Positions 4,824-18,982 of a stretch of DNA of 64,000 nt are shown here, piece by piece. Positions within the stretch are counted from its first letter, which is position 1. Each line of letters opens with the position of its first letter. The position numbers and the translations under genes are program-made. Source of the DNA: Synechococcus sp. BL107 (GTDB lineage Bacteria; Cyanobacteriota; Cyanobacteriia; PCC-6307; Cyanobiaceae); assembly GCF_000153805.1 (NCBI RefSeq), contig NZ_DS022298.1:318616-382615 (forward strand), given 5' to 3'. The notes beneath the pieces were generated by a model. It ran no database searches. It had not been told where the DNA came from and worked only from the letters and a program-made list of their open reading frames with translations.

Positions 4824-5972
4824 TTGAAAATCGCCTTTTTCACCGAAACCTTCCTTCCCAAGGTCGATGGCATCGTCACCCGGCTCACCAAAACGGTGAA
4901 ACACCTGGTGGATGCCGGTGATGAGGTGGTGGTGTTTTGCCCTGAAGGTTGTCCAGATGAGTACATGGGTGCTCGCTTAATCGGCGTTCCGGCGATGCCC
5001 TTACCGCTCTACCCCGAGCTCAAGCTGGCCTTACCGCGGCCCGCCGTGTCGGACGCCATTGACTCGTTCCAACCGGACCTCATCCATGTGGTGAACCCTG
5101 CAGTGTTGGGGTTAGGCGGAATCTGGTTGGCCAAGACGAAAAATATTCCGTTGATCGCCAGCTATCACACCCATCTTCCGAAATATCTTGAGCACTACGG
5201 CATGGGCATGCTCGAGCCCTTGCTCTGGGAATTGCTCAAAGCGGCCCACAACCAGGCCCTGCTCAACCTGTGCACCTCGACGGCGATGGTGCAAGAACTC
5301 AGCGACAAAGGCATCCAACACACAGCGCTCTGGCAGCGTGGGGTCGATACGGAGCTCTTCCGTCCGGCCCTGAGAAGCCCAGCGATGCGGCAACGTCTGC
5401 TGGGAAGCCATGACGATCGTGGCGCTCTGCTGCTTTACGTCGGTCGACTGTCCGCAGAGAAGCAAATCGAACGCATTCGTCCGGTCCTAGAAGCTTTACC
5501 CGATACCCGCCTTGCCCTTGTAGGCGACGGGCCCCATCGCCAGCAACTAGAAAAGCACTTCGACGGCACAGCCACCACCTTTGTGGGTTATCTGGCAGGG
5601 GACGATCTTGCAGGGGCCTATGCCAGTGGCGATGCTTTTCTCTTCCCCTCCAGCACAGAAACCCTCGGATTGGTGCTGCTTGAGGCGATGGCGGCAGGAT
5701 GCCCCGTGGTCGGTGCCAACCGAGGTGGCATTCCTGACATCATCACGGACGGCATCAACGGTTGTCTGTACGAACCCGATGGTGACGACGGTGGTGCCGC
5801 GAGCTTGATTCAGGCCACACAACGGTTGCTGGGCAACGACTTAGAACGTCAGGCACTCCGCAGTGCTGCACGATCAGAAGCCGAACGCTGGGGCTGGGCT
5901 GGCGCCACTGAACAACTGCGGGGCTACTACCGCAACGTTCTAAGCCAAGGAACACTGGACGCTGCTGCCTGA
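4824..5972 (+). CDS. sqdX: Sulfoquinovosyltransferase SqdX (GT4 glycosyltransferase)
   Basis: SqdX transfers sulfoquinovose from UDP-sulfoquinovose to diacylglycerol, completing SQDG. The 382-residue GT4 protein has the N-terminal donor-side loop FFTETFLPKVDGIVTR, a central YVGRLSAEKQIERI and the C-terminal EX7E region SSTETLGLVLLEAMAAGCPV. The proposed start is TTG at 4824, which gives the usual MKIAFFTETF beginning; an earlier in-frame start at 4755 would overlap sqdB. This is the last gene before composition turns AT-richer. Confidence 0.95.
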   Translation: MKIAFFTETFLPKVDGIVTRLTKTVKHLVDAGDEVVVFCPEGCPDEYMGARLIGVPAMPLPLYPELKLALPRPAVSDAIDSFQPDLIHVVNPAVLGLGGIWLAKTKNIPLIASYHTHLPKYLEHYGMGMLEPLLWELLKAAHNQALLNLCTSTAMVQELSDKGIQHTALWQRGVDTELFRPALRSPAMRQRLLGSHDDRGALLLYVGRLSAEKQIERIRPVLEALPDTRLALVGDGPHRQQLEKHFDGTATTFVGYLAGDDLAGAYASGDAFLFPSSTETLGLVLLEAMAAGCPVVGANRGGIPDIITDGINGCLYEPDGDDGGAASLIQATQRLLGNDLERQALRSAARSEAERWGWAGATEQLRGYYRNVLSQGTLDAAA

Positions 5973-5986
5973 AGTGGGATAAGACT

Positions 5987-6142
5987 ATGAAATTCTTAAA
6001 CGAAATTAGGATGAACGGCATCTTCAATAAACGCTTGTGTAAAAACGAACCCAGTCCGCACCTAGCTTTGAAATACAAATATTCATGCCTATATCCATTA
6101 CCCACTGCTCAGATTATTTGTAAAAGGATGTTTAAACTGTGA
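5987..6142 (+). CDS. Possible 51-residue leader ORF before legB (doubtful)
   Basis: From ATG 5987 a frame remains open to TGA at 6140-6142, overlapping the GTG start of legB by 3-4 nt. The predicted peptide is Lys/Tyr/Leu-rich (MKFLNEIRMNGIFNKRL at its start) and resembles nothing I recognise. No clear Shine-Dalgarno precedes it. In AT-rich DNA an open run of this length can occur by chance, so this is recorded only as a candidate for a short leader peptide or a gene remnant. It occupies nearly all of the 166-bp space between sqdX and legB. Confidence 0.2.
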   Translation: MKFLNEIRMNGIFNKRLCKNEPSPHLALKYKYSCLYPLPTAQIICKRMFKL

Positions 6143-7134
6143 AAGCATTGGTTACTGGCGCTGACGGATTCATCGGATCGCATCTTGTTGAAAAATTATT
6201 ATCGTCTGGAAAAGATGTAAAAGCATTCTGTTTATACAACTCACTCGGAAGCTGGGGCTGGCTTGACAGCCTCCCCGAAACCTCAAAAGAAGCAATTGAA
6301 GTAATTCTTGGAGATATTCGTGATCCAATATGCGTGAGGGAAGCCATGCGCGGATGCGACCAGGTGTTTCACTTGGCGGCCTTAATTGCAATTCCTTACA
6401 GCTATGTAGCGCCGGCAAGTTACATTGACACTAATATTCATGGCACATTGAACGTGGTTCAAGCTGCAAGAGATCTTGGAGTGACTAACTTAGTTCACAC
6501 ATCTACTTCTGAAACTTATGGCACTGCACAATTTGTACCAATTACAGAAGATCATCCATTAGTGGGTCAGTCTCCATACGCAGCGAGCAAAATCGGTGCC
6601 GACCAGATCGCACTAAGTTACTGGCGCAGCTTTGAAACACCTGTCACAGTATTACGTCCATTCAATACATATGGGCCTCGTCAAAGTGCTCGTGCTGTAA
6701 TTCCAACCATCATTACCCAAATTGCAGCAGGACATCGAAAAATTAAGTTGGGAGCACTTTCACCAACACGTGATTTTAACCATGTCTCCGATACATGTGC
6801 TGCTTTCCAAGCTTTGGCAAATTGCAATTCTGCCTTAGGACAAATTGTAAATGCAGCAAGCAATTTTGAAATCTCTATTGGTGATACAGCCTCACTAATC
6901 GCGAAGGCAATGAATGTGGAGTTGGACATTATTACCGATGAAAATCGTTTGAGGCCTGAGGGCTCTGAAGTTAATCGCCTCTTTGGAGACAATAGTCTTT
7001 TACGACAGCTGACAAATTGGCAACCGCGATATGGTGGACTTGATGGTTTTGAACGGGGAATTACTGAAACAGCTGAATGGTTTAGCAATCCAGCCAACTT
7101 GGCTCTATATCGACCAAATAGTTACTCCATTTAA
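6139..7134 (+). CDS. legB: NAD-dependent NDP-HexNAc 4,6-dehydratase, LegB-like
   Basis: This 331-residue extended SDR carries the Rossmann motif TGADGFIGSH (residues 6-15), HLAALIAIPYSY, TSTSETYG and the active-site YAASK (YxxxK). It matches the LegB group, which in Campylobacter and Legionella removes water from a nucleotide-activated GlcNAc to give the 4-keto-6-deoxy sugar, the first committed step to legionaminic acid. The start is GTG 6139. It opens a five-gene run, with legC beginning 3 bp after its stop. Base composition is visibly AT-richer than in sqdX or mrdA, suggesting transfer. Nucleotide specificity (UDP or GDP) cannot be told from sequence. Confidence 0.85.
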   Translation: MKALVTGADGFIGSHLVEKLLSSGKDVKAFCLYNSLGSWGWLDSLPETSKEAIEVILGDIRDPICVREAMRGCDQVFHLAALIAIPYSYVAPASYIDTNIHGTLNVVQAARDLGVTNLVHTSTSETYGTAQFVPITEDHPLVGQSPYAASKIGADQIALSYWRSFETPVTVLRPFNTYGPRQSARAVIPTIITQIAAGHRKIKLGALSPTRDFNHVSDTCAAFQALANCNSALGQIVNAASNFEISIGDTASLIAKAMNVELDIITDENRLRPEGSEVNRLFGDNSLLRQLTNWQPRYGGLDGFERGITETAEWFSNPANLALYRPNSYSI

Positions 7135-7137
7135 TAA

Positions 7138-8352
7138 ATGAGCTTTGCTTCTATTCCGAAAAGTGAAGACATTCTTAGAGCAATTCATCATGTAGTTGGA
7201 CAGAGCGACCGAGGACATACGATTGGCCTACATGAACCAGATTTCAGCGGCACGCAAGCTTGGGCTTACGTAAAAGATTGTCTGGATACTGGCTGGGTAA
7301 GTACTGCAGGCATCTGGGTGAGTCGGTTTGAAAAAGAGCTTTGCACAGTCACTGGTGCAAAACATGCAATCGCAGTGAGTAATGGAACCGTTGCACTGCG
7401 ATTAGCTTTGCACGTAATTGGGGTCAAGCCAGGCGATGAAGTTGTCTTACCACCGCTGAGTTTTGTAGCAACAGCTAACGCGATAGCTCATCTAGGCGCA
7501 GTTCCACACTTCGTCGATGTGGAAAACTCTAGTTTGGGCCTGTCTCCAACTGCCTTAAATGCACAGCTAGAGAAGGTCACCGAACGAAAAGACGGAGTGC
7601 TGCTAAATCGTGAAACAGGAAGGCGCATCGTTGCTATTTTACCTGTACACGTCTTTGGCTTTCCTGCCCAAATTATTGAGCTGCGGAAGGTGGCTGATGC
7701 TTGGCAATTACCGTTGGTTGAAGATGCGGCAGAAGCCCTCGGAAGCTGGCGTGAGGACATTCACTGCGGCTTGTTTGGGGCGGTGGGAACCCTGAGTTTC
7801 AATGGGAATAAATTAATTACTACTGGCGGCGGCGGAGCTCTACTCACAAACAATGATGAAATAGCCAAAAATGCACGACATCTTTCAACTACTGCTAAGC
7901 AGCAGCACCCCTGGTCTTTTCATCACGATGCAGTGGGTTGGAATGACAGGATGCCCAACCTCAATGCGGCCTTAGGCGTCGCCCAAATCGAAGACCTAAA
8001 TCGTCGGCTTAAAATTAAACAAAAGCTAGCAAAAGAATACATACAAGCATTTTCCAAGCTAGATGGAATCGAAGTTTTGCCCGAACCTCCTGGCTGCAAA
8101 AGTAACTATTGGATGGTAACTCTGCGTTTCACCACTCCTGATCCAGGTGCAGCAAACGCCCAGCGTCTAAGACTTCTTGAAAAAGCACATGAGACCGGGC
8201 TTTTATTACGGCCAATCTGGTCTTCACTGAACGAACTCCCAATGTACACATCATGCCCAGCTGGTCCACTACTCGTTGCAGAAGACCAGGCTCCGAGGCT
8301 GATTAATATTCCCAGCAGCCCACAGCTGCACAATGAGTGGGGTAGGACATGA
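7138..8352 (+). CDS. legC: PLP-dependent sugar aminotransferase, LegC family
   Basis: The 404-residue protein is a DegT/DnrJ/EryC1-type aminotransferase. Visible features are VSNGTVALRLAL, the beta-strand segment PGDEVVLPPLSFVATANAI, VEDAAEALGS (PLP-phosphate and ring contacts) and SFNGNKLITTGGGG with the Schiff-base Lys. In the legionaminic pathway LegC aminates the 4-keto sugar made by LegB. The GC content is low as in legB. Its stop overlaps the ATG of legH (ATGA, 8349-8352), indicating translational coupling. The neighbouring NeuB/NeuC homologues make this assignment more likely than perosamine or viosamine synthesis. Confidence 0.85.
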   Translation: MSFASIPKSEDILRAIHHVVGQSDRGHTIGLHEPDFSGTQAWAYVKDCLDTGWVSTAGIWVSRFEKELCTVTGAKHAIAVSNGTVALRLALHVIGVKPGDEVVLPPLSFVATANAIAHLGAVPHFVDVENSSLGLSPTALNAQLEKVTERKDGVLLNRETGRRIVAILPVHVFGFPAQIIELRKVADAWQLPLVEDAAEALGSWREDIHCGLFGAVGTLSFNGNKLITTGGGGALLTNNDEIAKNARHLSTTAKQQHPWSFHHDAVGWNDRMPNLNAALGVAQIEDLNRRLKIKQKLAKEYIQAFSKLDGIEVLPEPPGCKSNYWMVTLRFTTPDPGAANAQRLRLLEKAHETGLLLRPIWSSLNELPMYTSCPAGPLLVAEDQAPRLINIPSSPQLHNEWGRT

Positions 8353-8948
8353 AGCCCATATTATTGATCGGTTGTGGTGGCCATGCCCGTTCACTAATTG
8401 ATCTAATCGAAACAACAGGTCAGTGGAACATTTTTGGTTTAGTTGGATTCCCTGAAGAAGTAGGAAATAATGTGTTGGGCTATCCAGTAGTTGGCTGCGA
8501 TAAGGATCTAATCACCCTACGCAATACATGTTCCTCCGCAGTACTGGCTCTAGGTCAAATGCCAAATCCTGAACCGCGAAAAAATCTCGCATCTAAGTTG
8601 GAGGCACTAGCTTTTCATACACCTATTTTGATTTCACCCCATGCGGTTGTCAGTCGGCATGCTCGAATTAATGTCGGCACAACAATCGGACATGGGGTTA
8701 TTGTGAATGCAGCAGTAGAAGTTGGTAAATACTGCATTCTCAACAGCTTTGCCTTACTAGAGCATGATGTACGTGTAGAGGATCACTGCCATATCAGTAC
8801 TGGAGCGTTGGTCAATGGAAATGTACGGATAGGAACCGAAAGCTTTGTTGGCAGTGGATCCATGATTCGTGAGGGAATAAACTTGCCTCCTCGATCAGTG
8901 ATTGGTGCAGGAAAACGTGTAATGGGATGGCCATTAAGAGATTCATGA
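8349..8948 (+). CDS. legH: Sugar O/N-acyltransferase of NeuD/PglD family, LegH-like
   Basis: The 199-residue protein has the NeuD-type N-terminal nucleotide-sugar fold (LLIGCGGHARSLIDLI, residues 4-19) and a C-terminal left-handed beta-helix of hexapeptide repeats (from about residue 95, for example IGHGVIVNAAVEVGKYCIL). Members acetylate amino sugars (PglD, LegH) or sialic acid hydroxyls (NeuD) using acetyl-CoA. Lying between a LegC aminotransferase and a NeuB/LegI synthase, N-acetylation of the 4-amino group is the most likely role. It overlaps legC by 4 nt upstream and legI by 4 nt downstream. Confidence 0.8.
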   Translation: MKPILLIGCGGHARSLIDLIETTGQWNIFGLVGFPEEVGNNVLGYPVVGCDKDLITLRNTCSSAVLALGQMPNPEPRKNLASKLEALAFHTPILISPHAVVSRHARINVGTTIGHGVIVNAAVEVGKYCILNSFALLEHDVRVEDHCHISTGALVNGNVRIGTESFVGSGSMIREGINLPPRSVIGAGKRVMGWPLRDS

Positions 8949-9955
8949 CTTCTTCAGACCAAGCTTTGATAATCGCTGAAGCGGGCGTGAATCACAATGG
9001 TGATCTTGAACTCGCCATACAGTTGATAGATGCTGCAGCCGATGCAGGTGCAGATGCAGTGAAATTTCAAACCTTTCAAGCTAACAAGCTAGCGACTTTC
9101 AATGCTGAACAAGCTTCTTATCAACAAAAAGCCTCTGCCACGAAAGAAAGTCAATTATCAATGCTGCAAAAGCTAGAACTCAATCCTGAGCAACATAAAC
9201 ACCTTATCGATCACTGTCTCAAGAGAAATATTGAGTTTCTCTCAACTGCTTTCGATTTGCATAGCATCAAAATACTTTCATCATTAAATATCAAAAGATG
9301 GAAGATACCTTCCGGAGAAATTACCAACTTGCCCTACCTCAGAGAAATTGGCGCTCAAGGCAAACCAATAATCCTTTCAACAGGCATGAGCACTCTGGGC
9401 GAAATCGAAGCAGCGCTTGAAGCACTAGAGAAAGCTGGGGTTCTACGAAATCAAATCACCGCTTTGCACTGCACGACTGAATACCCAGCTCCAATTGAAG
9501 AAGTCAACTTACGCGCCATGCAGAGCATCGCTATTGCATTTGGAATTGATGTGGGCTATTCCGACCACACTGAGGGCATCTCGGTGCCAATTGCTGCCAT
9601 AGCATTGGGTGCATCAGTGATCGAAAAGCACCTAACTCTTGATCGCAATTTACCCGGCCCAGATCATAGGGCCAGCCTGGAACCCGATGAGTTTGGGGCA
9701 ATGGTTGATGGCATTCGAAATATTGAGAAAGCCTTGGGGGATGGAATTAAACGACCTACTATTAGTGAGAAAGCAAATATCAAAGTTTCACGCAAGTCGC
9801 TAGTAGCTTCTCAAACTATTCGTTCTGGAGAAAAATTTACTGTAAACAATCTCACAAGTAAAAGGCCCGGCACCGGGATTTCTCCGATGCATTGGGACGA
9901 TTGGATAGGCCGACAAGCCACAAGAGACTACTCTGCTGACGATCTTATTACATGA
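8945..9955 (+). CDS. legI: N-acetylneuraminate/legionaminate synthase (NeuB/LegI)
   Basis: This 336-residue enzyme condenses phosphoenolpyruvate with a 6-carbon N-acyl sugar to make a nonulosonic acid. It has the NeuB start IIAEAGVNHNGDLELA, the catalytic barrel (KIPSGEITNLPYLREI, STGMSTLGEIEAAL, HCTTEYP, GYSDHTEGI, EKHLTLDRNLPGPDHRASLE) and a C-terminal SAF domain (about residues 280-336, RPGTGISP). ATG 8945 is preferred because it gives the same ATGA overlap as the other junctions; ATG 8927 would add six residues. Context with LegB/LegC suggests legionaminic acid, but sequence alone does not fix the substrate. Confidence 0.92.
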   Translation: MTSSDQALIIAEAGVNHNGDLELAIQLIDAAADAGADAVKFQTFQANKLATFNAEQASYQQKASATKESQLSMLQKLELNPEQHKHLIDHCLKRNIEFLSTAFDLHSIKILSSLNIKRWKIPSGEITNLPYLREIGAQGKPIILSTGMSTLGEIEAALEALEKAGVLRNQITALHCTTEYPAPIEEVNLRAMQSIAIAFGIDVGYSDHTEGISVPIAAIALGASVIEKHLTLDRNLPGPDHRASLEPDEFGAMVDGIRNIEKALGDGIKRPTISEKANIKVSRKSLVASQTIRSGEKFTVNNLTSKRPGTGISPMHWDDWIGRQATRDYSADDLIT

Positions 9956-11118
9956 ACATATCCCGTCGGAAAATATGCGTCGTTACAGGAGCCCGTGCTG
10001 AATATGGACTACTGCGCTGGGTAATGCAAGGGATCCAGAATTCTGCTCTGCTGGAACTGCAATTGATCGCAACTGGCATGCATGTTTCCCCGGAATTTGG
10101 ACTCACGACTCGCGAAATTGAAGCAGATGGTTTCAGAATTAATAGAAAAATAGAAATGCTGCTTAGCTCTGACACATCAGTAGGAATAACTAAATCAATG
10201 GGACTGGGAATGATTGGGTTTGCTGATGCACTTGCCGAACTAAAACCTGACCTAATGCTTGTTTTAGGAGATCGATACGAAATCTTTACTGCTGCAGCAT
10301 CGGCAATGATTGCCCGAATACCTATTGCCCATTGCCATGGAGGAGAATCTACGGAAGGAGCCATTGACGAATCGATAAGACATAGCATCACAAAAATGGC
10401 GCATCTACATTTTGTAGCAGCCGATGAGTACCGAAATAGAGTTATACAGCTCGGGGAGCAAGATGACAAAATCTTTCAAGTTGGCGGCTTGGGAATCGAT
10501 AACATCTTGAGACTCGATTTACTAACTAGACCACAGCTTGAGGAGTCTCTCAATTTTAAGTTAGCTCAGCGCAATTTATTAATCACATTCCATCCTGTGA
10601 CATTAGAAGAAAAAAACACCAGCGCCAACCAAATGAAAGAGCTATTAAGCGTATTAGCAGATTTAAATGATGTTGGTTTAATTTTTACGATGCCCAATGC
10701 TGACGAGGACGGACGGGCACTTTTTAAGCTAATTAGTACCTTCTGCTCTGAACACAATAATGCCCAAGCATATACATCACTAGGGCAGCTGCGTTATCTA
10801 TCTTGCATCAAGCATACTGATGGGGTGATTGGCAATTCTTCTAGCGGTCTACTCGAAGCTCCTAGCCTCAAAAAAGGCACAATTAATATCGGTGATCGGC
10901 AAAAAGGTCGCTTAAAATCATCTAGCGTAATCGACAGCACTCCAGACAGAAAGTCAATAAGCGAGTCCATTAACTATTTGTTTTCGCCAGATTTTCAAAA
11001 AAGACTTCATGACTGCAAAAATCCCTACGGGAATGGAGGCGCAAGCGAAGCCATTGTAAGACAACTAGAGACTCAAATACTTGACAATCTTCTCAAAAAA
11101 CAATTCAAAGATATTTGA
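9952..11118 (+). CDS. legG: Hydrolysing UDP-GlcNAc 2-epimerase family protein (NeuC/LegG)
   Basis: The 388-residue protein shows the NeuC signatures GARAEYGLLRWVMQ, VLGDRYEIF, HCHGGESTEGAIDESIRH and GNSSSGLLEAPSL. The family removes the nucleotide and inverts C2, giving the free 2-epimer that LegI/NeuB condenses with PEP. It overlaps legI by 4 nt (ATGA, 9952-9955) and is the last gene of the run. A CMP-nonulosonate synthetase (NeuA/LegF), normally present beside such genes, does not follow. Low GC continues to its end. Confidence 0.9.
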   Translation: MNISRRKICVVTGARAEYGLLRWVMQGIQNSALLELQLIATGMHVSPEFGLTTREIEADGFRINRKIEMLLSSDTSVGITKSMGLGMIGFADALAELKPDLMLVLGDRYEIFTAAASAMIARIPIAHCHGGESTEGAIDESIRHSITKMAHLHFVAADEYRNRVIQLGEQDDKIFQVGGLGIDNILRLDLLTRPQLEESLNFKLAQRNLLITFHPVTLEEKNTSANQMKELLSVLADLNDVGLIFTMPNADEDGRALFKLISTFCSEHNNAQAYTSLGQLRYLSCIKHTDGVIGNSSSGLLEAPSLKKGTINIGDRQKGRLKSSSVIDSTPDRKSISESINYLFSPDFQKRLHDCKNPYGNGGASEAIVRQLETQILDNLLKKQFKDI

Positions 11119-11426
11119 GCATAAGCGCTTAATACCTAGTTATTCAAGTCATTTAAAGCATGAAATTGCCAAGTTAAGCTTAGGCCAGTCCTATGGCTTC
11201 CATTGGGTCAATACTTCCGAGCATAGAAGACGTCTTAACCATGAATAAAATACGGCCAATTTTCAACACTCCCTTGTAAGCAACAGATAACTATATTGCC
11301 TGAGAATATTCTGATTAAGCCAAAATATTCATCTACATCGCAAATGATGATCTTGGTAGACAAGAAAAAAGGTTTGCCATACAAACTCTGTAGACAGAAG
11401 TACTTCCTAATCTAGAAACTTGAAAC
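11119..11426 (+). other. Gene-free AT-rich stretch at the end of the nonulosonic acid block
   Basis: No supportable gene is seen in these 308 bases between legG and the convergent mrdA. A 10-bp palindrome TAAGCGCTTA lies at 11122-11131, 4 bp after the legG stop, too short and without a T-run to be called a terminator. A 28-codon ORF starts at 11193 (MASIGSILPSIEDV) but has no recognisable family. I looked for remnants of a CMP-sugar synthetase or nucleotidyltransferase on both strands and saw none. The AT-rich composition ends near 11410, where mrdA begins. Confidence 0.5.
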
Positions 11427-13214
11427 TCAGCCTTTGCTGCGGGATTGTTCCCACGCCGCAAGCACTTTCTTCGCCATCGGCAATGCGTGCACGGAACCAC
11501 CTCCTGGGGTGTTCTGAGCGAAGGCCACAACAACAATTTTGCCCTCGGGATACGGGGCATAACAGCCAAACCAGGCATGGTCCGGGCCACCGGTACTGTC
11601 TTCGGCGGTACCCGTTTTTCCAGCCGCAGGGGGAATCCCGTCGCCATTCAACCCATAGCCCGTGCCGTCTTCCACCACCTTGCGCAGACCCTTTCTGATG
11701 GTCTCCAACGTGGACGGCTTGATCAGAACAGCACGCCTGTGCTGCGGCGCCATCCAATCGATCTCCCCCTTCGCTAAGTGGGGCGTCACCAACCAACCAC
11801 CATTGGCAAAAACGGCGTAGGCACGGGCCAACTGCAACGGCGTGATTTGCACCACCGACTGACCGATGGACGCACTGGCCATGTCTTCAGGGATCCAGGG
11901 GGTACTGCCGGGGTCGGCCCAGCCACGGCCGTTCTCAGCCCAATCTTCATCGCCAACGAGACCCACACTCTCTTCCCAGTCGATCTCGATCCCAGTTTTT
12001 TGCTGAAAACCCAGTTGATTCGCCGCCTGTTTTAGGGCCCGAGATCCCACTCCAACTCCCACTTGGTAGAAAAAGGTGTTGCTGGAAAAGCGCAAGGCGT
12101 CGGCATAGCCGATCTGACCAAAGCCAGCACCGTTGTGATCAGGAAAACAATGGCCTCCATAGGTGATGCAAGCCTTGGTTTGGAGTTTGGTTGTTGGAGG
12201 GAACTTTCCAGATTCCATACCAGCCATTGCCGTGACGGGCTTCCAGGTGCTGCCAGGGTCGTAGGGATTCATCGCCCGACTCAAAAGGGGCTTATTGGGA
12301 TTTAAAAAGAGAGCGTCGTACTCCTTTTGCGTTGTGATCAGCTTGGAGAAAAAGTTTGGATCAAAGCCAGGCTTACTCGCCAAAGCCAGCACGGCGCCCG
12401 TCTTGGCCTCAAGCGCCACGACGGCCCCTCCAGGCTTGTCCGCCAATGCCTGCTCTGCAGCGCGTTGCAGATCCAAATCCAAGGTGAGCGTGAGGTCTTG
12501 TCCCGACTCCGAAGGGCGATCGCCGAGGTTCCGCTGCACTTCACCCAGCGCATTCACCTCCAACATCTGACCGCCCCACTTGCCGCGCAAATGGGTCTCA
12601 TAGGCCGCTTCAACGCCGGTCCGACCAATGCGATCACGGATCTTGTAGCCCTTCTCCACCAAGGTGTCGTACTCAGACTCCGTAATCGGTTGGGTGTATC
12701 CCAAAGCATGGGCAGCGAGGCTGCCATGGGGATAAAAACGCAAAATGTCGACGTCCACTTGCGCCCCCCGCAAACCCAAGGCCTGCTCGCGGAAACGCAA
12801 GACCTGTTCTGGCTTTAGATCGAGCATCAACGTTGTGCGATAGCCATCCCGATCTGTCCCACGATCGCGTCGCTGGTCCAGCAGCAATGGGTCGAGATTC
12901 AATAGTGATGCGAGCCGATTGCGTAATTCAGGCCAATCGGCATCACTCACCAAGCGAGGCTCGAGATACAAGGAATAGGTGAGTTTGCTTGTGGCCAGTA
13001 CACGACCCTTGCGATCCAACAACCGTCCTCGAATCGGCGAGCGTGGAACAAGACGGATGCGGTTTTCATCGGCGAGTTCCTTAAAGCGTGGCCCCTCCAG
13101 CAACTGCATCCACACCAGCCGGCTGACCATGGCGGAGCAAAACACCAGCACCACCATCAACAGCACCAGGGGCTGTTGCCGTAATCCGGTCTGACGCTGC
13201 TGGGCAGAAGCCAT
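11427..13214 (-). CDS. mrdA: Penicillin-binding protein 2 (transpeptidase)
   Basis: PBP2 crosslinks peptidoglycan during cell elongation. The 595-residue protein has an N-terminal membrane anchor (about residues 15-38), a dimerisation region, and the three penicillin-binding motifs: GSTWK with Ser322 and Lys325, SSN at 377-379, and GKTGTAE near residue 537. Length and order fit MrdA rather than FtsI. ATG at 13214 lies 3 bp after the stop of the 123-residue gene upstream, so it is the distal member of a minus-strand cluster with two cyanobacterial hypotheticals. Confidence 0.95.
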   Translation of the reverse strand: MASAQQRQTGLRQQPLVLLMVVLVFCSAMVSRLVWMQLLEGPRFKELADENRIRLVPRSPIRGRLLDRKGRVLATSKLTYSLYLEPRLVSDADWPELRNRLASLLNLDPLLLDQRRDRGTDRDGYRTTLMLDLKPEQVLRFREQALGLRGAQVDVDILRFYPHGSLAAHALGYTQPITESEYDTLVEKGYKIRDRIGRTGVEAAYETHLRGKWGGQMLEVNALGEVQRNLGDRPSESGQDLTLTLDLDLQRAAEQALADKPGGAVVALEAKTGAVLALASKPGFDPNFFSKLITTQKEYDALFLNPNKPLLSRAMNPYDPGSTWKPVTAMAGMESGKFPPTTKLQTKACITYGGHCFPDHNGAGFGQIGYADALRFSSNTFFYQVGVGVGSRALKQAANQLGFQQKTGIEIDWEESVGLVGDEDWAENGRGWADPGSTPWIPEDMASASIGQSVVQITPLQLARAYAVFANGGWLVTPHLAKGEIDWMAPQHRRAVLIKPSTLETIRKGLRKVVEDGTGYGLNGDGIPPAAGKTGTAEDSTGGPDHAWFGCYAPYPEGKIVVVAFAQNTPGGGSVHALPMAKKVLAAWEQSRSKG

Positions 13215-14268: not shown

Positions 14269-14946
14269 TCATGGGTTTTCGGTGGGCGCTGGACGAGCTC
14301 CAGAGTGGGGCAGTGCCGTTCCGCGAATGCGATAGCCGCGTCGACGTAAAAAACGGCAAAGCGCGGCTTGCTCTTGAGCGACCGTTATGTCGAACGCAAA
14401 AAAATTGTTGCGCCGAGCGAAATAACTGCGCAGATCAGCGTCATGCCGCTGCCAGGCTTCGTGCCAATGAAGACGCAGGTCGTCCATCGTGAGGCTTGAA
14501 TCCTCAAATGCCCGCTGCATTCGCTTTAGATAAGTGCGAGCATATTTACCGTTGCGGTGGTTCATTCGGGAATCAACCCAACGGTGCACATCACGCGTGT
14601 TGTAGATAAAACAAGACCCGGGATATTGCAGATCCAAAAGAGGAAAAAGTCGATAGGCATAAAACTCACCACAAAGCTCCATGTCTGTGTAACCACAGTA
14701 TTGGTCGACACCATCAAGAAGTGGACGTGAAAAAATAAAATTCGCCTGAATGCGCTTCGCTAAACGACCTTTGTCGTAGTGGATCGAGCTATATCCATTC
14801 TTATTGAGAAGCTTATTAAAGGATCGTGTTCCACATTTATTGTGGCCAATCAGAAAAATGCGTCGAGATTCATCAGCCTGAATTGAATTACTTTGCTGAC
14901 GCAAAGTTCGCCAAACATTTGAAGGCCAAGCCAAGGGGGACATCAT
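14269..14946 (-). CDS. Sulfotransferase-family protein coupled to guaA
   Basis: This protein of about 225 residues has a PAPS-binding P-loop-like segment [20 protein letters not shown] near its N-terminus and [19 protein letters not shown] in the middle, which resembles the 3'-phosphate-binding loop of sulfotransferases. Such enzymes move sulfate from PAPS to carbohydrates or other acceptors; the acceptor is unknown. The likely start, ATG 14946, overlaps the guaA stop (ATGA); GTG 14952 and ATG 14943 are alternatives. The region around 14560-14900 is AT-richer than guaA, hinting at later acquisition. There is no signal peptide. Confidence 0.75.
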
Positions 14947-16529
14947 TCCCACTCAATGGTGCCGGGGGGCTTGCTGGTGATGTCCATCACCACACGATTC
15001 ACCCCTTTCACCTCGTTGACGATTCGATTCGAAATCGTCTCCATCAGGTCGTAAGGGAGACGCGACCAATCTGCTGTCATGCCATCTTCACTGGACACAC
15101 AACGCAGCACGATCGGCCAGGCATAGGTGCGCTGGTCACCCATCACCCCGACAGAACGAACTGGCAATAAAACTGCGAAGGCCTGCCAAATCTCGTGATA
15201 CAAACCAGCATCACGAATCTCTTCACGAACAATCAGATCAGCATCACGGAGGCAGTTGAGCTTTTCATCCGTCACTTCTCCAAGGATGCGAATCGCCAAC
15301 CCAGGCCCAGGGAAGGGATGACGCCTCACAATCTCCTCTGGCAACCCCAAATTCCGACCCACTTTGCGCACTTCGTCTTTAAATAACTTGCGCAGTGGTT
15401 CGACTAACTTAAATCGCAAATCTTTTGGCAAGCCACCAACATTGTGGTGGCTTTTAATCTTCACCGCCACACGCTCACCCGTTTTGGGATCAACGTTGGT
15501 GCCCGCACTTTCAATCACATCCGGGTAGAGCGTGCCCTGAGCTAAATAATCAAATGGTCCGAGACGCTTGCTCTCCTCCTCAAAAACCCGAATAAACTCC
15601 GTGCCAATGATTTTGCGTTTATCTTCTGGATCAGTAATCCCCTTTAGTTTGTCTATAAACCGCTTACGCGCATTGATATATTCCACATTAATATTGAATT
15701 TTTGATCAAAAAATTCCATCAAAAATTCGGGCTCTCCTTTTCGCATAAAGCCCTGATCAATGAACATGCAAGTGAGCTGATCACCGATCGCTTTTTTCAA
15801 TAAAAAAGCCAGGGTTGAGGAATCAACACCTCCAGATAGAGCCAGCAAAACCCGTTTTTGTCCCACCTGTTCGCGCACTAAGGCCACCGCTTCATCAATG
15901 AAGGCATTGGTGGTCCAATCCTGTTCACAGGCACAAATGTGATTCACAAAATTGCGAATCAACGCCATCCCACAGGTGGAATGCACCACCTCTGGATGGA
16001 ATTGCACTCCATACAACTTGCGCTCAAGGTTCGCGACCGCGGCTTCAGGCGTATTCGCCGTATGGGCCAAACGAACGAAACCCTCCGGCAAGGCCTTCAC
16101 CGAGTCGCCATGGCTCATCCACATCGTTGAGCCACTCTCAACTTTGTTGAGAAGGTCGGTGGGATCATCCACCACCAGGGGAGCCTTGCCGTATTCCGCC
16201 TTACCGGTCGCCGCCTCAACAGCACCTCCGAGCTGCTGAACCATCAGCTGCATGCCGTAACACACCCCCAGCACCGGGATACCGAGATCCCAAATCGCAG
16301 GATCACAAACCGGGGCATGCTCCGCGTAGACCGAGCTGGGACCACCGCTCAGGATGATTCCCTTCGGCGCCATCCGACGCAGCTCATCGGCTGTTGTGCT
16401 GTATCCGATCACAACCGAAAACACTTCGGTTTCGCGAACACGACGGGCGATCAGTTCCGAATATTGAGAACCAAAATCGAGGATGACGATGGCCGGCTGA
16501 CGCTGACCGTCGGACGAGGGCTGGGACAT
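14943..16529 (-). CDS. guaA: GMP synthase (glutamine-hydrolysing)
   Basis: GuaA aminates XMP to GMP. The 528-residue protein has a class I glutamine amidotransferase domain ([15 protein letters not shown], nucleophile Cys90 in GVCYGMQLM, and [11 protein letters not shown] with the catalytic His/Glu), then the ATP pyrophosphatase PP-loop [14 protein letters not shown] and a dimerisation domain ending [11 protein letters not shown] 16529 ([20 protein letters not shown]) is preferred to the in-frame start at 16610, which would overlap cbiD. Its stop overlaps the start of the sulfotransferase gene. Confidence 0.97.
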
Positions 16530-18910: not shown

Positions 18911-18982
18911 GCGGGTGTAATTCAGTGGTAGAATGTCAGCTTCCCAAGCTGGACGTCGCCGGTTCGAATCCGGTCACCCGCT
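18911..18982 (+). tRNA. tRNA-Gly (anticodon CCC)
   Basis: A full cloverleaf can be drawn over 72 nt. The acceptor arms GCGGGTG and CACCCGC pair over 7 bp with discriminator T at 18982. The D-loop is ATTCAGTGGTAGAAT, the anticodon arm TCAGC/GCTGG encloses loop TTCCCAA (anticodon CCC, reading GGG), and the T arm GCCGG-TTCGAAT-CCGGT is perfect. CCA is not encoded. It stands alone between the aminotransferase and a run of small genes. Confidence 0.96.

Follow-up and report, generated by a model that had tools for sequence, protein, structure and literature searches.

What are five AT-rich genes of a sialic-acid type doing between sqdX and mrdA, two convergent genes of Synechococcus sp. BL107, and do they make a product on their own? 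The stretch analysed here, the window, is 64,000 bases long and covers G000:C1:318616-382615 of a source genome held in a single contig of 2,285,034 bases. Sugars resembling sialic acid are known chiefly from pathogens, and a first-pass annotation of the window had read the five genes as a compact cassette gained by horizontal transfer. We consider it likely that the block encodes the middle section of the guanosine diphosphate (GDP)-linked pathway to cytidine monophosphate (CMP)-legionaminic acid, with the remaining steps supplied by a second island (island 2) elsewhere in the genome. The features concerned are as follows, in window coordinates except for the last.

5973 to 11426: the insert, 5454 bases, GC (guanine plus cytosine fraction) 0.44, delimited by composition and by its absence at this site in relatives.
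6139 to 7134, + strand: legB, nicotinamide adenine dinucleotide (NAD)-dependent nucleotide-sugar 4,6-dehydratase (TIGR04180 LegB, 520.5 bits, cut-off 475).
7138 to 8352, + strand: legC, pyridoxal phosphate (PLP)-dependent aminotransferase (TIGR04181, 513.8 bits, cut-off 420).
8349 to 8948, + strand: legH, NeuD/PglD-type hexapeptide N-acetyltransferase (TIGR03570, 169.4 bits, cut-off 160.8; Pfam PglD_N and Hexapep).
8927 to 9955, + strand: legI, nonulosonic acid synthase of the NeuB family (TIGR03569, 504.4 bits, cut-off 399.65; Pfam NeuB and SAF).
9952 to 11118, + strand: legG, hydrolysing nucleotide-sugar 2-epimerase of the NeuC family (TIGR03568, 476.9 bits, cut-off 235.9).
5973 to 6138: AT-rich lead, 166 bases, matched by blastn among the loci compared only by its own copies.
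11119 to 11426: AT-rich tail, 308 bases, without a recognised gene, likewise matched by blastn only by its own copies.
4833 to 5972, + strand: left flank, a glycosyltransferase of family 4 named sqdX in the first-pass annotation (Pfam Glyco_transf_4 / Glyco_trans_1_4).
11427 to 13214, - strand: right flank, mrdA (penicillin-binding protein 2), convergent with sqdX (TIGR03423, 533.8 bits, cut-off 455).
G000:C1:210262-231777: island 2, 21.5 kb, GC 0.348, between transketolase (tktA) and thiC.

All five open reading frames (ORFs) of the block are intact, all exceed the cut-offs of their NCBIfam models, and Pfam agrees with these assignments, which bears out the previously described order of dehydratase, aminotransferase, acyltransferase, NeuB-type synthase and NeuC-type epimerase. 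Homologues of LegB, LegC, LegI and LegG, as in the GDP-linked route to CMP-legionaminic acid, therefore stand together. The model reached by LegH describes the NeuD/PglB/VioB family, and the substrate of this enzyme is a prediction. The best solved relative of LegG is the GDP/UDP (uridine diphosphate)-N,N'-diacetylbacillosamine 2-epimerase (5xvs/5zlr, 341.6 bits), against 162.7 bits for the bifunctional epimerase/kinase 4zht and at most 54 for the other epimerases listed, and this closeness fits legionaminic rather than neuraminic acid. The LegB and LegC models and this structural relative thus support the legionaminic or sialic-type sugar class proposed at first pass. Two other routes fit less well. 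For the pseudaminic acid pathway, PseB (63.5 bits against 407.75), PseC (198.3 against 423.5) and PseI (301.1 against 340.25) all stay below cut-off, and an N-acetylneuraminic acid pathway of NeuB and NeuC only does not suit the presence of LegB and LegC or the LegG match, the NeuB and NeuC models themselves being reached.

The block contains neither PtmE, for precursor activation, nor a CMP-sugar synthetase. The idea of a compact cassette thus holds for the five ordered genes and fails for completeness, the candidates for the absent steps lying in island 2. There, with ptmE 114 kb from legB, the genes run in the order PtmE-type CBS-nucleotidyl transferase, methyltransferase, PtmA-type, WbuX/WbpG, HisH, HisF/WbuZ, PtmF-type and LegF-type, with more genes of surface-glycan kind downstream. 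The PtmE candidate matches Pfam CBS and NTP_transferase above cut-off and is 60-61% identical to the gene near legB in two relatives (G334 and G258); the PtmF candidate belongs to the GFO/IDH/MocA oxidoreductase superfamily; and the LegF candidate (CTP_transf_3, at ~217 kb) has a CMP-N-acetylneuraminate (NeuAc) synthetase as its best solved relative (E 3e-25). It is one of four CTP_transf_3 matches in the genome, the others being KdsB (191 bits, cut-off 155), GlmU and a protein near a fused NeuB described below. The amidotransferase of the acetamidino trio WbpG/HisH/HisF occurs in island 2 adjacent to both partners; WbuX (346.3 bits, cut-off 203.2) and HisH (211.2 bits, cut-off 105.4) exceed their cut-offs, HisF/WbuZ does not. 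GlmU itself (L011:7775-9124, 765 bits, cut-off 602) is a housekeeping gene and so weak evidence for the pathway.

In relatives the two halves travel together. Among 400 family genomes drawn evenly from a larger group, with the window's genome counted, LegB (E at most 1e-80) occurs in 27 and PtmE (E at most 1e-50) in 26, all of them among the 27; that both searches covered the same 400 genomes is taken from matching genome labels. None of the 373 genomes without LegB has PtmE at these thresholds, and the LegB genome without PtmE (G142) is 59% complete. The hypergeometric probability of this co-occurrence is 6e-40, a figure inflated by linkage and relatedness. The starts of legB and ptmE are at most 7.8 kb apart in 24 of the 26 genomes, the exceptions being the window's genome and G162, in which they lie on different contigs. 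A Rhodobacteraceae contig (L051) carries the single run legB-C-H-I-G-ptmE-wbpG-hisH-hisF-ptmF-legF-ptmA, that is, the five genes of the block in the same order and seven of the kinds found in island 2. In the same-family genome G225 (L124) the single run reads ptmE-ptmF-legF-ptmA-legB-C-H-I-G-formyltransferase-PIG-L deacetylase-wbpG-hisH-hisF, and the cluster of G167 resembles it. The G225 cluster shares the legB-C-H-I-G order with the block at 60-80% identity, but it forms one run of ~13 kb with ptmE, ptmF, legF and ptmA in front, and neither sqdX nor mrdA occurs within the stretch examined. Neither flanking gene was found near the cassette in any of the 26 other LegB genomes (~10 kb on each side where the contig allowed).

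The division between the islands has a counterpart in characterised systems. In Campylobacter jejuni the pathway is described as consisting of two segments, GDP-sugar and CMP-nonulosonate, linked by GlmU (Schoenhofen 2009, as reported in PMC4481668). The block holds the same LegB, LegC, LegH, LegI and LegG, and candidates for PtmE, PtmA, PtmF and LegF are present in the genome, whereas here the genes form two islands with legB and ptmE 114 kb apart and an amidotransferase trio beside the second half; the split follows the C. jejuni segment border except for LegF. Plesiomonas shigelloides, as described in the same paper, has PtmA, LegF, PtmF, PtmE, LegH, LegI, LegG, LegC and LegB as well, but in one cluster between two flagellar regions instead of two islands. 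The enzymes are of known kind, and their split arrangement in a picocyanobacterium appears new. A search by title and abstract of the open-access literature for legionaminic or nonulosonic acid pathways in cyanobacteria showed nothing on topic among the papers listed, which does not prove that none has been published.

From these assignments a working route may be drawn. PtmF, PtmA and PtmE of island 2 would, with GlmU, make GDP-N-acetylglucosamine (GlcNAc), which LegB would dehydrate, LegC aminate and LegH acetylate into a diacetamido sugar. LegG would then remove the nucleotide while epimerising C2, LegI would condense the LegG product with phosphoenolpyruvate into a nine-carbon acid, and LegF of island 2 would activate the nonulosonic acid with CMP. 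WbpG-HisH-HisF may add an acetamidino group, and a transferase outside the block (there is none among its five genes) would attach the sugar to a polysaccharide or protein of the cell surface. The product, as far as homology can indicate it, is likely a CMP-activated, possibly acetamidino, legionaminic acid destined for a surface glycan.

How the five genes came to stand here is indicated first by composition. GC is 0.440 in 5973-11426 and 0.558 in the remaining window, the genome background averages 0.541 (range 0.467-0.588 in nine 10-kb samples outside the window), and the lowest-GC stretch of 5454 bases in the 64 kb begins at 5951. Third-position GC of the block genes is, in order, 0.329, 0.411, 0.332, 0.389 and 0.366, against 0.649 and 0.645 for the flanking genes. 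In a codon-usage index that measures agreement with the codon use of the genome, 2-4 of 105 background ORFs fall below each block gene, so that the usage is unusual but not unique in this genome. Measured in 100-base windows, GC drops at the left edge (0.62 at 5920, 0.40 at 6000) and climbs back at the right one (0.40 at 11400, 0.56 at 11460), in agreement with the sharp changes placed earlier at about 5975 and 11410 and with the reported AT-richness of the five genes relative to sqdX and mrdA; within the resolution of this profile the edges of the insert are the stop codons of both flanking genes. The promoter presumably lies in the lead at 5973 to 6138; no consensus promoter was found there, and promoter and terminator patterns are fewer than in shuffled sequence. 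The block, its tail included, has no Rfam family.

Comparison of the sqdX-mrdA junction leads in the same direction. Both ends of the site are readable in 28 of 33 other same-genus genomes (G004, G011, G014, G018 and G025 being unusable), and the block is absent from all 28, the spacing of the two genes, tail to tail, being -57 to +42 bases in 26. At the same junction G008 (L085) has 318 bases and G009 (L074) 936 bases, neither resembling the block significantly, and the site may thus be one that takes up inserts time and again. In G006, the closest relative by mrdA (97%) and the bearer of a 96% identical sqdX, the two genes overlap, and in G045, from another family, they do so by 46. Since they overlap or nearly abut in most relatives, the block was inserted cleanly where the two gene tails meet, and neither gene was spoiled. 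The left-flank gene reaches no NCBIfam cut-off among the 25 matches listed. No LegI relative above 40% identity was found in the 33 other same-genus genomes, apart from one contig-edge piece in G025. That piece (G025:C109:3-107) is 35 residues long and 63% identical to LegI, and this draft genome may be a second carrier.

Two vehicles of entry were considered and set aside. The insert does not look like a tRNA-targeted integrative island, as the sole transfer RNA (tRNA) gene of the window (18911-18982) lies 7.5 kb downstream, the scan upstream of the insert covering the first 6 kb of the window, and the five genes include no integrase. A viral carrier found no support either: scans of viral contigs with LegB and LegI, which detect close relatives only, confirmed none, while PtmE gave one 37% match in viral contigs and LegI three phage-collection records at 31-34%. 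The search for flanking repeats gave only short, chance-like matches, and the TGAA common to both edges, judged against the empty site, is too short to call. Elsewhere in the window, 14269-14952 holds a small sulfotransferase-like gene (Sulfotransfer_4) with third-position GC of 0.45, beside a gene that we take, from its translation, to be guaA.

Trees were built for LegB, LegI, LegG, PtmE and LegF; they omit matches covering less than 70% of the query (e.g., LegC of G258 and LegG of G172) and L063, from the same contig as G172, and those of PtmE, LegF and LegI come from quick searches and carry Shimodaira-Hasegawa-like approximate likelihood ratio test (SH-aLRT) support only. In the LegB tree, one branch (100/99) sets apart 26 picocyanobacterial rows, the window's among them; outside stand G174 and a distant paralogue with a very long branch of its own (G162c6). 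The window's LegB belongs to an eight-row set (97/94) with G167, G334, G258, G172, G145, G225 and G269, none of them from the window's genus, and is 81% identical to G334 and 80% to Prochlorococcus sp. AG-412-I05 (we take G172 to be the latter). This set lies within the family, hence the nearest source found is inside it, and the tree suggests that the immediate source was probably picocyanobacterial rather than a distant donor. The grouping with other genera and the absence of the block from same-genus genomes support the horizontal gain suggested by the first-pass annotation; the five genes would most likely have entered from another picocyanobacterium, between two convergent housekeeping genes and with damage to neither. 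LegI groups with G225, G258 and G172 (96), PtmE with G334 and G258 (83) and LegF with G167 (96), and WbpG (72-73%), HisH (56%) and HisF (63-64%) are nearest to G225. The eight-row LegG set (98/95) includes Rhodobacteraceae and Halieaceae rows, so that legG may have crossed phyla. Similar differences between modules, in PtmE and NeuA, are reported for Aliivibrio clusters in PMC7371886.

At the site of island 2, transketolase-thiC spacing was taken from match coordinates in 21 same-genus genomes. The two genes are 133-257 bases apart in 11 genomes, and wider gaps occur in G005 (~2.0 kb), G007 (18.8 kb) and G010 (30.1 kb), the window's genome having 21.5 kb; in the remaining 7 one gene is missing at the threshold or the two lie on different contigs. 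The G010 island holds NeuB (32%) and WbpG (34%) of other kinds, and the G007 island matched neither. The junction seems to be a place where islands with surface-sugar genes settle repeatedly. Near island 2, G000:C1:186000-200000 is AT-rich too (GC 0.34-0.44) and contains two very long ORFs (1036 and 1114 amino acids). Picocyanobacterial genomic islands, as described in PMC7522525, likewise consist of strain-variable gained genes, whereas the block is one small insert, placed between convergent genes that normally overlap.

Several observations weigh against the proposal that the two islands complete one pathway. The NeuB and NeuC models reached by the block carry N-acetylneuraminate names. In island 2, PtmE reaches no NCBIfam cut-off and its substrate is predicted, the PtmA short-chain reductase scores 132 bits against a cut-off of 350, the best model for LegF is PseF at 108 bits against 206, and HisF/WbuZ, at 222.2 bits, stays below 299.7. 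The LegF frame (L010:7224-7946) has no ATG, GTG or TTG ahead of the CMP-synthetase motif CARGGSKGVPGKN, so that LegF either uses a rare start codon or is damaged. Island 2 is made up of modules whose nearest relatives differ, and the co-occurrence of LegB and PtmE largely follows from linkage, the window's genome being the sole clear unlinked case. Finally, the CTP_transf_3 protein near the fused NeuB (PseF 116 bits, cut-off 206) might serve instead of LegF. This fusion, a CBS-NeuB-SAF-AP_endonuc_2 protein of 762 amino acids at G000:C1:2186055-2188343 (L008:56-2344), stays below the cut-offs of both NeuB and PseI; a few kb upstream of it lie the CTP_transf_3 protein (~2181.7 kb) and two DUF6716 putative glycosyltransferases. 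NeuB matches in frames of at least 760 amino acids occur in 23 of the 33 other same-genus genomes, and the locus seems to be a second pathway of nonulosonic type that is widespread. One might accordingly suppose that the block is an independent cassette, in which LegB uses UDP-GlcNAc and needs no PtmE, the synthetase beside the fused NeuB activates the product and island 2 makes a different sugar. The presence of that synthetase and fusion, and of CTP_transf_3-like matches alongside the long NeuB frames in many same-genus genomes, would suit such a scheme, but it leaves unaccounted for the restriction of PtmE to LegB genomes, and long NeuB occurs without LegB in same-genus genomes, so that its synthetase probably has a partner of its own; we regard this explanation as unlikely. 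Slightly less probable still is that the block, once transferred, survives as a remnant that is unused or in decay, a half-pathway stranded from its partners. The operon is incomplete alone, LegF lacks an ordinary start codon, and LegI and LegG of G172 (L123 13070-15209) and LegC of G258 (L122 10843-12032) match only in pieces, from either broken genes or assembly errors, so that decay may happen in this family. The five frames in the window are nevertheless intact, and in comparisons of the block genes with seven relatives the nonsynonymous divergence (dN) is at most 0.35 in 23 of 32, while the synonymous divergence (dS) is undefined (saturated, by a counting method) in all but two, which makes dN/dS unobtainable; low dN with saturated dS points to long purifying selection, not necessarily in this genome.

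The history of the block and of its partner admits further readings. A reading of the five genes as ancestral in the genus and lost in all relatives can point to the 26 LegB rows on one side of a strongly supported branch, which indicate long possession of the gene by the family. Vertical descent is nonetheless very improbable in view of the lack of LegI relatives in the other same-genus genomes (the short G025 piece apart), the overlap of sqdX and mrdA even in another family, the atypical codon usage and the position of the window's LegB beside other genera. Within the two-island reading itself, both halves together resemble one cluster of the G225 or L051 type, and a single cassette could have been split inside this lineage rather than gained twice. 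Such a fission, which we hold to be rather doubtful, sits poorly with GC values of 0.44 in the block and 0.35 in island 2 and with nearest relatives that differ from module to module, yet composition varies within the single cluster of G225 too, so these differences are not decisive. It is tempting to propose instead that acetamidino-legionaminic acid is made by two half-pathways whose islands were acquired separately, each of them at a junction of convergent genes with little or nothing in between in most relatives examined; we advance this tentatively, as a possibility that may well prove wrong, and any time order of the two gains would be conjectural.

If the two-island proposal is true in this form, the surface sugar would be a two-key trait that comes and goes with the exchange of either island. 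Across the picocyanobacterial family, a Prochlorococcus included, the pathway is distributed patchily, and its modules have differing nearest relatives. Recently gained picocyanobacterial genes have been suggested to serve biotic interactions (PMC7522525), and a role of the predicted sugar in encounters with phages or grazers is plausible. Should the two halves cooperate, strain-level gain and loss of a charged surface sugar would become genetically testable, and the system would offer a handle on phage adsorption, grazing and the turnover of surface islands.

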